Both the position numbers and the translations under genes were made by a program. The notes beneath the pieces are model-generated. The model saw only the letters and a list, made by a program, of their open reading frames with translations. It ran no database searches and was not told the DNA's origin. Of a stretch of 38,043 nt of DNA, positions 30,897 through 36,053 are shown one piece after another. This DNA comes from Spartobacteria bacterium. GTDB taxonomy: Bacteria > Verrucomicrobiota > Verrucomicrobiia > Chthoniobacterales > UBA10450. Where the stretch lies: contig PMSN01000015.1 of the NCBI GenBank assembly GCA_003167555.1, positions 1-38,043 of the forward strand, written 5' to 3'. The stretch's first letter is position 1. Every line of letters begins with the position of its first letter.

Positions 30897-31010
30897 CGCC
30901 CTCGAGCTTCTTCGTCAATGGCAGCGCGCCGGCAAGGTATTGCTCTTGACCCGGCGGACAAACGCGCGCTAGCGTCGGCCAAAGAAATTTTTCTCAGGAG
31001 AAATACTACC

Positions 31011-31829
31011 ATGCGCTTCCTCGTCACCGCGATCGTGTTCCTTGCCGCCGCGCAATTTTTGCGCGCGCAGGACGCGGCCTCTACTCCTTTTCTGCAAACG
31101 AGCCCGACCGTGGAAGAATCGCCGACCCCCACGCCGAAACCGACTCCCAGTGCGACGGAAACGATGACGCCTAAGCCGACACCGATCGCCACCCCAAGAC
31201 CAACGCCCAAACCAACCGCGACTCCGACGCCGACTCCCAAACCGACGCCGAAGCCGACTGCAACTGCCACGCCCACACCGAAACCGACGGCCACTCCCAC
31301 TCCAAAGCCGACGGCAACTCCGACACCGAAACCGACCGCAACGCCAACACCGAAACCAAAACCAACCGCAACGCCGAAGCCGACGCCGAAACCCACGCCA
31401 ATTCCGACCCCGCGGCCCACGCCTGCCCCTTCACCCGTTGTCGAGGAAAGCGGATCCGCTGCGAAATTGAAGGAACTCGAACAAAGTTGGGAAGGCTCGC
31501 TCCTGACGCACGACGCTGCCGTCATAGAGAGAATCGTCGCGGACGATTTCGTCGGCATATCATCGAGCGGGAAGATCGGCAACAAAGCGACGCTGCTGAG
31601 TGAGGCGCGAACCGATAAGAGCGTCTACAAATCCGCCGTCTCGGAAGAGATTTCCGTGCACTCCTTCGGACCGAACGTCGCGGTGGTCACGGGCATCGCG
31701 CGGGAAACCGGCAAGAACGCGGCGGGAAAATCGTTTTCGCACGCTTATCGTTTCACCGACACGTGGGTGGAGCGGAACGGCGAGTGGCAATGCGTCGCCG
31801 CGCACGCTATGGCCCTCCCAAAGAAGTAG
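31011..31829 (+). CDS. secreted NTF2-like (DUF4440-type) protein with Pro/Thr/Lys repeat linker
   Basis: ATG 31011 is preceded by AGGAG about 10 bp upstream and opens a signal peptide ([19 protein letters not shown]). Residues about 35-145 are a repetitive [13 protein letters not shown]-type linker (31110-31430 in DNA). The C-terminal 125 residues form an NTF2/SnoaL-like cone ([61 protein letters not shown]), which matches DUF4440. Such domains may bind or convert small ligands; no catalytic residue can be named. The linker suggests a wall- or envelope-spanning spacer. Confidence 0.85.
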
Positions 31830-31832
31830 AGC

Positions 31833-31907
31833 CGCTTCGCTGTGCGAAGCGCTTTCAAGGAAGGGCGATTTGAAATCGCCCATGGCGGTTGCAAACCGCC
31901 GCTCCTT
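31833..31907. repeat. cloverleaf-like cluster of three hairpins
   Basis: Three perfect hairpins follow one another: CGCTTCGC-TGT-GCGAAGCG (31833-31851), GGGCGATTTGAAATCGCCC (31863-31881) and GGCGGTTGCAAACCGCC (31884-31900). The latter two are enclosed by CAAGGA (31856-31861) and TCCTTG (31902-31907). The element fills the gap between the DUF4440 gene and treS. Its hairpin CGCTTCGC-n3-GCGAAGCG recurs at 35296-35314. Confidence 0.8.
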
Positions 31908-31949
31908 GGCGATTGCGCCACGTCCATTGTTGCGCCAACTGTTAGCCTC

Positions 31950-34900
31950 ATGTCGAACGCGACGCCTGATCCAGCCGTGGATGCGCTTTGGTACAAAGAC
32001 GCCATCATCTACGAGCTCCATGTCAAAACATTTCACGATAGCAACGGCGACGGCATCGGCGACTTCCGCGGCCTGATCGAGAAGCTCGATTACCTCCAGG
32101 AACTCGGCGTCACCGCGCTCTGGCTCCTGCCGTTTTATCCGTCGCCCATGCGCGATGACGGCTACGACATTGCCGATTATTACGACGTCAATCCGAACTT
32201 CGGCACGCTCGACGATTTCCGCGCCTTCCTCGCCGCGGCGCATGAGCGCGGCCTGCGCGTCATCACCGAACTCGTCATCAATCACACCTCGGATCAAAAT
32301 CCGTGGTTCCAGAAATCGCGCCGGGCCGCGCCCGGTTCGCGCGAACGAGAGATGTATGTCTGGAGCGATACGCCGGAGAAATACCAAGAGGCGCGCATCA
32401 TCTTCAAAGACTTCGAGACTTCCAACTGGTCGTGGGACCCGGTGGCGAAAGCGTATTACTGGCACCGGTTTTATTCGCATCAGCCCGATCTGAATTTCGA
32501 CAACCCGGAAGTGCATGAAGCTCTCGAGAAGGTGCTCGATTTCTGGCTGAGCATGGGCGTCGACGGCCTGCGCCTCGATGCCGTTCCCTACCTCTACGAG
32601 CGGGAAGGAACGATCTGCGAAAACTTGCGCGAGACCCACGAATACCTCGTGAAACTGCGCGCGCACGTCGATGCGAAATTCAGCGGCCGCATGTTGCTCG
32701 CGGAAGCGAATCAATGGCCGGAGGACGCCGTCGCCTATTTCGGCAAGGGCGACGAGTCCCACATGAATTTCCATTTCCCGCTCATGCCGCGGATGTTCAT
32801 GTCGCTTCAGATGGAGGACCGCTTTCCGATCATCGACATTCTCGACCAAACGCCGCCGATTCCCGAGACCTGCCAGTGGGCGATGTTCCTGCGCAACCAC
32901 GACGAGTTGACGCTCGAAATGGTGACCGACGAAGAGCGCGATTACATGTGGCGCGTTTACGCGAACGATCCGACCGCGCGCATCAATCTTGGCATCCGCC
33001 GCCGTCTCGCGCCGCTCCTCGCGAACAGCCGCCGCAAAATCGAGCTGCTCAACATCCTGCTCTTCTCGATGCCGGGCACGCCGGTCCTTTATTACGGCGA
33101 TGAGATCGGGATGGGCGACAATTTCTATCTCGGCGATCGCAACGGTGTCCGCACTCCAATGCAATGGAGCCCGGACCGCAACGCCGGTTTCTCCAAGGCG
33201 AATCCGCAGCAGCTCTATCTGCCGATCACGATCGACCCGGAGTATCACTACGAAGCGATCAACGTCGAGAACCAGCAGAAGAACCTTTCTTCGCTTCTCT
33301 GGTGGACGCGCCGGGTCATTGCGATGCGGAAGAATTTCCGCGCCTTCTCGCGCGGCTCGCTCGAGTTCCTTCTGCCGGAGAACAACAAGGTGCTCGCGTT
33401 TCTTCGCCGGCATGAGGACGAGACGATCCTGGTCGTCGTGAACCTGTCGCGCTTCGCGCAGGCCGCCGAGCTTGACCTCTCTCGCTTCAGCGGCTGTTCA
33501 CTGATGGAGGTCTTTAGCCAGAATTATTTTCCGCGCATCAAGAAATCGCCTTACGTCATCACTCTCGGGCCTCATTCGCATTACTGGTTTGTCCTCCGAT
33601 CGGAAACCGCTGCATCCGTCGCCTCGAAGAAACGCAAGATTCCCATCCTGGCGTCTGCCACGACTGTTGGTGCACTCCTCAACAGCCAGCGCGGCAGCAT
33701 CGAGCGCGAAGTGCTGCCGGCATACATTCGCAGCTGCCGATGGTTCGGCGCGAAGGCGCGGACGTTACGCGACATGCGGATCGTCGAGGAAATTCCTATC
33801 TCCGATAAAGAGCTGGCCCCGCAAGTTTGGTTCGTCGAAGTCAGTTATCTCGATGGACCGACCGAGACTTATGCGCTGCCTGTGCAGATCGCGAGAAACG
33901 ATGCCGCCCGCGCCTTGGAGCGCTCTGCCCCTCACGCGGTGATCGCGCGATTGCACGGCGACGGCGATGCGATCTTGCACGATGCGGTTTACGACAAGTC
34001 GTTCCGAGAGGATCTCTTCGCGCTCATGACCGCCGCTCAGTCCGTGCGCGGACAAAAAGGGAACATCGTCGGCCTAACGAGCAGTGCGTTTCCGAAAGAC
34101 GCGCGCTCCGGCGTGCCCGCCTCGCAAGTGCTCAGCGCCGAGCAGAGCAATTCATCGATGCTTTTCGAGAACAAATTTTTCCTGAAGCTTTTCCGGAAAC
34201 TTGAAGACGGCGTGAATCCGGATGTCGAGGTCACGCGTTTTCTGACCGAGCGCGCGCAGTTCCCCAACGTCCCGGCGTTTCTCGGCGCGATCGAATATCG
34301 CCGGACCAAAACTGAACCCACCGTTGTCTGTCTGCTTCAGAGCGCCGTAGCGAACGAAGGCGATGCCTGGACGCTGACGCTCGATGCGGTCGGCCGCTAT
34401 TACGAGCGGGTCCTGACGCGAAAGGCGGATTTGCAGAACCAGACCACTCCGCCCGGTCCACTTCTGGAGGAATTGATCGGGGGAGTTTATCGCGAGAAAG
34501 CCAAACTGCTCGGCCAGCGCACCGGCGAACTGCATCGCGCTCTCGCCATCAGCCCCGACGAGCGCGGCTTCGCGCCGGAGCAATTCAACGCCATGGCGCA
34601 ACGCTCCGTTTATCAAAACATGCGCGCCTCGTTGCGCCGCGCCTTCGCCTTGCTCGAAAAGAAACTGCCCACGCTGCCCGACGCTTTTCGCGACGAAGCC
34701 GCGCAAGTTCTCGCCTCGGAAAAACGAATCCTCGCGCAGGAAAAGCGCATCCTCGATCGCCGGTCGAACGCGACCAAGATCCGGATTCACGGCGACTACC
34801 ACCTCGGCCAGGTTCTCTACACCGGAAAAGATTTCATCATTCTCGATTTCGAAGGCGAACCCGCTCGCGCATTAGCCGAACGCAAATTGAAGCGGTCCGC

Positions 34901-35231
34901 GTTGCGCGATGTCGCCGGCATGATGCGCTCCTTCCAATACGCCGCTTACAGCGCGCTCTGGCAACCCGCGATGCGCGTCGAGGACGTGCCCTTCCTCGAA
35001 CACTGGGCCGATCTCTGGTATCGCCAGATGAGCAGCGTCTTTTTGCAAAGTTATCTCGAGGCCACCGGCGGCGCCGCGTTCATTCCGCCCGATGAAGGCG
35101 ATTTCCAGATCCTCCTCGAAGCCTATCTGCTCGACAAAGCCGTCTACGAGGTCGGCTACGAATTGAACAATCGCCCGAGCTGGGTTGTCATCCCCATTCG
35201 CGGCATTAAACACATCTTAGGTGCGATGTAG
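31950..35231 (+). CDS. treS: trehalose synthase - maltokinase fusion
   Basis: ATG 31950 ([17 protein letters not shown]) is used; the longer frame to 31842 reads through a palindromic repeat. Residues 1-555 are a GH13 trehalose synthase (maltose alpha-D-glucosyltransferase) with nucleophile Asp210 ([10 protein letters not shown]), acid/base Glu252 (LLAEANQWP) and Asp318 (FLRNHDEL), plus [12 protein letters not shown]. Residues from about 570 to 1093 form a maltokinase: [30 protein letters not shown], and the phosphotransferase core [14 protein letters not shown] followed by [10 protein letters not shown]. The enzyme links trehalose to maltose-1-phosphate, the substrate of GlgE for alpha-glucan synthesis. 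The two activities are fused in many bacteria. GlgE is not in the window. Confidence 0.96.
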
Positions 35232-35243
35232 AAAGCCGACCTC

Positions 35244-35321
35244 CTGTAGCCGCCGCCCTGTGGGCGGCGTCCTCTCTGCACAACGCGTTTTCTCGCGCTT
35301 CGCATAGCGAAGCGGCTACAG
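35244..35321. repeat. cloverleaf-like palindromic element (CTGTAGCCGC ... GCGGCTACAG)
   Basis: The outer stem CTGTAGC/GCTACAG encloses two perfect hairpins: CGCCGCCC-TGT-GGGCGGCG (35251-35269) and CGCTTCGC-ATA-GCGAAGCG (35296-35314). It sits between treS and the CADD gene. The same plan, an outer stem with inner hairpins, is seen at 31833-31907, and its outer arm matches those of 22906-22977 and 36059-36083. Confidence 0.82.
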
Positions 35322-35378
35322 AAAAAAGATTCGCAGTTCCTCAACCTCGCCATTAAAACCAACCATTCAGAGAACCAT

Positions 35379-36053
35379 ATGAACCAACACCTCGACTCCA
35401 TCGATCGCCAGATCGCCGCGAAACATCTTCTGACTCATCCTTTCTATCTCGCCTGGACCCGCGGCGAATTGAGCATGGCCGCGCTCGCTGATTACGCGCG
35501 CCAATATTATCACCACGTCGCCGCCTTCCCTACCTATCTCTCCGCTGTGCATGCGAGGTGCGACGATCAGCCGACCCGCCGCCAACTCCTCGATAACCTC
35601 ATCGACGAAGAAGCCGGCACGCCGAACCATCCCGAACTCTGGCTCCAATTCGCCGAAGGCCTCGGTGTTTCGAAGGAGGATGTGCAGTCTTCCGAAAAAT
35701 GGAATGAGACTTCGAATCTCATCGGCACGTTCCGCTCTGTCTGCTCCGGAGGCACGACCGCCGATGGCCTCGCCGCGCTCTACGCCTACGAAAGCCAGAT
35801 TCCCGCCGTCTCCGAATCGAAGATCAAAGGCCTCGTCGAGAACTACAACATGACCGAGCCGCGCGATTACGAATACTTCACCGTCCACGTCGAAGCCGAT
35901 CGCGAACACGCCGCCGCCGAACGCGCGATGCTTTCTCAGTATGTCACCGACGACAACGCCGCGCCCACTGCGAATGCTGTCGATCGCATCCTCGATGCTC
36001 TCTGGGAAATGCTCTCCGGCGTCTGCCGCCGCCACGCCATCGCCTGCGCGTGA
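35379..36053 (+). CDS. CADD-family protein, predicted self-sacrificing p-aminobenzoate synthase
   Basis: The 224-residue helical protein matches the CADD family (TenA/PqqC-like diiron fold). All residues I recall from chlamydial CT610 are present with a constant offset of four: metal ligands Glu77, His84, Glu138, His170, Asp174, His177; the sacrificed Tyr as Tyr23 (HPFYLAWTRGELS); the Lys amino donor as Lys148; and Tyr39. In Chlamydia the protein makes p-aminobenzoate for folate from its own Tyr side chain, using oxygen and a metal pair. The same chemistry is inferred here. SD-like AGAGAA precedes the ATG weakly. No other folate genes are in the window. Confidence 0.88.
   Translation: MNQHLDSIDRQIAAKHLLTHPFYLAWTRGELSMAALADYARQYYHHVAAFPTYLSAVHARCDDQPTRRQLLDNLIDEEAGTPNHPELWLQFAEGLGVSKEDVQSSEKWNETSNLIGTFRSVCSGGTTADGLAALYAYESQIPAVSESKIKGLVENYNMTEPRDYEYFTVHVEADREHAAAERAMLSQYVTDDNAAPTANAVDRILDALWEMLSGVCRRHAIACA

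Follow-up and report, generated by a model that had tools for sequence, protein, structure and literature searches.

A CADD/PabS-type gene downstream of treS

The window analyzed here is a whole stretch of 38,043 nt from contig PMSN01000015.1 of a Spartobacteria bacterium. The features under study, all on the forward strand, are as follows.

31842..35231, +: treS-maltokinase fusion directly upstream of the CADD gene (Pfam alpha-amylase, Malt_amylase_C and Mak_N_cap); the true start is probably at ~31950
35232..35378, +: 147-bp gap between treS and CADD; comparison within the genus shows variable hairpin-forming repeats in the distal part and partial conservation of the proximal ~60 bp
35379..36053, +: predicted gene for a CADD/PabS-type self-sacrificing p-aminobenzoate (pABA) synthase (TIGR04305, PDB match to CADD, AlphaFold model)
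35445..35447, +: codon of Tyr23, aligned with the sacrificed Tyr27 of CADD and Tyr25 of NePabS; invariant in 41 relatives
35493..35495, +: codon of Tyr39, mapped to the essential Tyr41 of NePabS and Tyr43 of CADD (role from PMC11965152)
35607..35909, +: stretch with the codons of six metal ligands, Glu77, His84, Glu138, His170, Asp174 and His177, matched to CADD at an offset of four and invariant among the relatives
35787..35876, +: stretch from the Tyr137 codon to the Tyr166 codon, mapped to Tyr141 and Tyr170 of CADD, the positions of Mn/Fe preference (role from PMC11965152)
35820..35822, +: codon of Lys148, aligned with the amine donor Lys152 of CADD and Lys159 of NePabS; invariant in 41 relatives

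The ORF at 35379-36053 (+) runs without interruption from an ATG and codes for 224 aa. Its product had been named a CADD protein in the original prediction, and database searches agreed: it scored 287.2 bits against TIGR04305 (fol_rel_CADD, 'CADD family putative folate metabolism protein'; curated cut-off, 200 bits), and its best solved relative by sequence was CADD of Chlamydia trachomatis (1rcw, E = 2.5e-59; 8va9, E = 3.7e-59), with which it shares 44-45% identity. It also matched 9pj4, a 4-aminobenzoate synthase (E = 2.2e-50), in whose sequence the published Tyr25 and Lys159 peptides of the Nitrosomonas enzyme are found. Membership of the PqqC and BesC families was rejected at 58 bits (cut-off 240) and 44.9 bits (cut-off 500), respectively. 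Comparison with three members of the genus gave a dN/dS of ~0.08-0.10, indicating purifying selection on the gene. A second open frame of 276 aa runs along the reverse strand, but it was rejected as a gene because the family match, conservation and dN/dS all fit the forward strand. We conclude that the ORF encodes a real CADD/PabS enzyme, whose function we infer from characterized homologs.

The predicted structure led to the same family. An AlphaFold model built with an alignment of 41 sequences reached a pLDDT of 97.2 (a model built without an alignment had a pLDDT of 47 and was discarded) and showed a seven-helix heme-oxygenase-like fold nearest to CADD, on which it superposed at 1.0-1.1 Å. 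The closest solved structure among the matches listed was 1rcw (Foldseek TM 0.92/0.96; VIA-align Z 33.6, rmsd 1.0 Å over 214 residues, 44% identity), while PqqC scored lower (Z 27.5, 17% identity).

Upstream of treS, positions 30918-31829 (+) encode a DUF4440 protein whose long linker is built of Pro/Thr/Lys repeats, and this linker also yields long spurious ORFs on the opposite strand.

Sacrificial residues and the predicted metal center

The original prediction held that all ligands and the Tyr/Lys pair are kept at a constant offset of four, and the residue map to C. trachomatis CADD agreed throughout: Tyr23 corresponds to Tyr27, Tyr39 to Tyr43, Tyr43 to Tyr47, Glu77 to Glu81, His84 to His88, Trp88 to Trp92, Tyr137 to Tyr141, Glu138 to Glu142, Lys148 to Lys152, Tyr166 to Tyr170, His170 to His174, Asp174 to Asp178 and His177 to His181. 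A misaligned key residue was rejected by the pairwise alignments and by the alignment of 41 relatives from Verrucomicrobiota, Acidobacteriota, Armatimonadota, Chlamydiota, Cyanobacteriota, other phyla and archaea. The six metal ligands comprise three His and three carboxylates, and Tyr39, Tyr43 and Trp88 are the counterparts of Tyr41, Tyr45 and Trp99 of NePabS, that is, the second essential Tyr and the radical-path residues. The six ligands, Tyr23, Tyr39, Tyr43, Trp88, Tyr137 and Lys148 are invariant in the 41 relatives, which were fetched with peptide patterns that exclude Tyr23 and Lys148; one pattern includes the position of Tyr137 and allows Tyr or Phe there. The residue set is not due to chance because it is invariant in these relatives, whereas PqqC-type paralogs of the same fold in Verrucomicrobiota carry His and Arg at the positions of the sacrificial Tyr and Lys. 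Taken together with the low dN/dS, this argues that the gene has been kept as a complete self-sacrificing enzyme.

By analogy with its characterized homologs, the window protein would be a CADD/PabS-family dimetal oxidase with a heme-oxygenase-like fold, building pABA from its own side chains. A two-metal center, most likely Mn/Fe, would react with O2 and a reductant, and a radical would reach Tyr23 through a path of conserved aromatic residues. The Tyr23 side chain would be cleaved off to become the pABA ring, with Lys148 donating the amino group; each chain would yield one pABA and then be spent. In the characterized homologs, metals, O2 and reductant suffice, the reaction leaves Gly in place of Tyr and aminoadipate in place of Lys, and O2 supplies both oxygens of the pABA carboxylate (PMC11965152; PMC13108848). 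The BesC, UndA and FlcD dimetal oxidases share the heme-oxygenase-like fold and the O2-activating metal center with the window protein but act on outside substrates, and PqqC, the pyrroloquinoline-quinone synthase, shares the fold, whereas PqqC-type paralogs are devoid of the sacrificial pair. As protein synthesis costs about four ATP per residue, one pABA would cost ~900 ATP if one 224-aa chain is used per product. This estimate bears out the costly process foreseen in the original prediction, for which the single turnover itself is taken from the homologs.

Two characterized systems stand closest to the window protein. It shares with CADD (CT610) of C. trachomatis the fold, all ligands, the sacrificial Tyr and Lys, the second Tyr that is essential, and the pair of metal-adjacent Tyr residues; it differs in that its host is free-living in soil, its gene lies by treS and not in a folate cluster, and no host interaction is known. 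With NePabS (NE1434) of Nitrosomonas europaea (9pj4) it shares the sacrificial Tyr/Lys, the ligands, a free-living host and a gene outside any folate cluster, but a comparison at the sequence level shows that NePabS has Phe148/Phe177 (Fe/Fe) and an extra loop of ~10 residues, whereas the window protein has Tyr/Tyr and no loop. Biochemical work has established NePabS as a pABA synthase, and an E. coli pabABC deletion is complemented by the NePabS gene (PMC11965152). The view of a free-living bacterium using this route, put forward in the original prediction, is thus supported but not new in kind.

Fe/Fe use in NePabS is associated with Phe148/Phe177, and changing both residues to Tyr shifts the enzyme to Mn/Fe (PMC11965152). 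Since Tyr137 and Tyr166 are both present in the window protein, a Mn/Fe cofactor is predicted. We consider it rather unlikely that the enzyme uses Fe/Fe instead: the host is a free-living aerobe like Nitrosomonas and the ligands alone do not dictate the metal (PMC13108848), but the metal-choice residues are those of CADD and not those of NePabS. The Tyr/Tyr state was found in 50 of the 51 sequences of the own family, 13/14 Acidobacteriota and 4/4 Armatimonadota, counts that describe the closest relatives of the query and not population frequencies; in this sample it is the commonest state in free-living groups too. The use of Mn/Fe has been proposed to reflect iron restriction within host cells (PMC11965152). 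The common occurrence of Tyr/Tyr among free-living bacteria speaks against linking Mn/Fe to an intracellular lifestyle; it also makes the proposed link testable.

A third state, Tyr/Phe, occurred in all five cyanobacteria (L135, L136, L139, L140 and L142) and in two marine archaea (L128 and L131). It resembles, as a natural state, the cambialistic F148Y variant of NePabS.

Conserved pairing of CADD with treS

The location of the gene near treS had been described as unexplained. It is no one-off: of the 42 family genomes that carry the main CADD type and whose upstream DNA is readable, 37 have treS directly upstream of CADD on the same strand. The pairing is thus conserved, and it is probably an old trait of the family. 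The two genes are usually 30-250 bp and sometimes 600-830 bp apart. Upstream of CADD, treS is absent in G207, G169, G181 and G184, and was not seen within the 0.9 kb available in G163.

In the window, positions 35240-35325 consist of GC-rich hairpin-forming repeats that differ between species of the genus. These variable repeats, followed by better conserved DNA immediately ahead of the ATG, leave room for a separate CADD promoter. A riboswitch or other known RNA upstream of CADD was rejected, as Rfam contained no RNA family matching the gap.

One genus of the own family, g85, carries a divergent CADD type with 41% identity to the window protein (L055:5044-5730, L056:4789-5472 and L058). It does not adjoin treS, and all sacrificial residues and ligands are present. 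In the protein tree it sits on a long branch next to a Micrarchaeota sequence (moderate support), and it seems to have displaced the copy native to the family.

Sources of pABA in the host and its family

The original prediction proposed to look for complete pab genes in the host genome, a 4.2-Mb draft of 29 contigs that is 98.1% complete. This genome contains one CADD and one chorismate-binding gene (PF00425). The latter lies beside trpG and is trpE, scoring 570.1 bits against the trpE_most cut-off of 517.7 and falling under every pabB cut-off; a hidden pabB was rejected on this basis, and no pabB was found in the draft. Among three class-IV aminotransferases, two pass branched-chain aminotransferase cut-offs and the third passes none; as none exceeds any curated pabC cut-off, a hidden pabC was also rejected. 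GTP cyclohydrolase I (folE), HPPK (folK) and DHPS (folP) are encoded, so the pathway that requires pABA is present, and the CADD gene is not located with these folate genes. With neither pabB nor pabC above cut-off, CADD is the only visible source of pABA in the host, although TrpE/TrpG might make some aminodeoxychorismate. Together with the alignment of all key residues, this outcome of the genomic check favors the original prediction.

We extended the comparison to 83 genomes of the family (Chthoniobacterales/'Udaeobacter'), 30 of which are good. The Chthoniobacterales/Candidatus Udaeobacter/Spartobacteria group lives in soil. CADD was matched in 72/83 genomes and in 24 of the 30 good ones (six were without a match), and DHPS in all 30. 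A single chorismate-binding gene was present in 23 of the good genomes, none in seven and two in none. Five of the seven genomes devoid of chorismate-binding genes retain CADD and DHPS (G013, G175, G181, G183 and G210); G013 is 100% complete, and CADD of G210 is a fragment at a contig end. In G176 and G177 of the same family, DHPS is present, but CADD and chorismate-binding genes are both missing. An even sampling of Verrucomicrobiota beyond the family showed at least two chorismate-binding genes in 86 of 142 genomes and no CADD above the cut-off in any genome. CADD thus replaces the chorismate route throughout much of the family, and is likely the sole pABA source of this free-living soil bacterium and of most of its relatives there.

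A missing pabB is by itself no proof that pABA comes from CADD, because four other families (f14, f19, f21 and f30) have DHPS, mostly zero or one chorismate-binding gene and no CADD (e.g. G002, G009, G011, G016 and G022 among f14, f19 and f21). These families, as well as G176 and G177, may import pABA or use a bifunctional TrpE or another enzyme. In other phyla, CADD occurs alongside a single chorismate-binding gene in a Silvibacterium, a complete Parachlamydiaceae genome and two Acidobacteriaceae, one of which has a complete genome. Each of three CADD-bearing cyanobacteria has two chorismate-binding genes, the second of which could serve phylloquinone synthesis.

Considering all these data, it is highly probable that the window protein makes pABA from its own residues, takes the place of PabA/PabB/PabC and supplies DHPS for folate synthesis, by analogy with the characterized enzymes. 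A CADD-like protein with another main job, for instance as a redox or stress enzyme or a partner of trehalose metabolism by treS, would leave pABA to come from the soil or from a promiscuous TrpE/TrpG. The conserved treS pairing, the Verrucomicrobiota lineages living without PabB and CADD, and a second role reported for C. trachomatis CADD (PMC11965152) speak for it, yet we hold it to be very unlikely: an ordinary oxidase could dispense with Tyr23 and Lys148, which are invariant in the relatives and missing from the PqqC-type paralogs, the divergent g85 type keeps all sacrificial residues away from treS, and CADD persists alongside DHPS even where a genome has no chorismate-binding enzyme at all. 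That pabB sits in the missing ~2% of the draft, making CADD redundant, is scarcely credible, as none of the 30 good genomes has a second chorismate-binding gene and, among the 83, two full-length copies occur only in G214, which is 6% contaminated and in which both score like trpE.

If pABA is made by self-sacrifice, an oddity known from chlamydiae and Nitrosomonas extends to a whole bacterial family. Because the route is the only visible pABA source across a common soil family, it would be no quirk of host-dependent or iron-starved life. Pipelines seeking only pabA, pabB and pabC would label such bacteria folate auxotrophs, and the genomes devoid of any chorismate-binding enzyme are natural tests of the route. 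More speculatively, the soil family may have lost the chorismate route and rely for its folate on a single-turnover Mn/Fe protein. The tie of the gene to that of trehalose synthase would couple pABA supply to the stress or storage state, and Mn/Fe would be the common state of this enzyme family in free-living bacteria and not an adaptation to intracellular iron starvation. As far as the cited papers show, three findings are new: replacement across the family, the conserved pairing with treS and how widely Tyr/Tyr is spread among free-living bacteria.

In the CADD protein tree, the family is placed beside environmental chlamydiae. We claim no direction of transfer because the support is only moderate (91/89). 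Several sequences depart from the main type. A CADD-like protein at L057:1988-2635 (G178:C18) aligns at both sacrificial residues, lacks the last His ligand at its place and has several short deletions; it is possibly another subfamily or a decaying copy. In a CADD of the family at L099:5780-6400, an in-frame gap of ~17 residues removes the sacrificial Lys, by either a real loss or an assembly error. The archaeal CADDs (L128 and L131) represent a further group with the full residue set.
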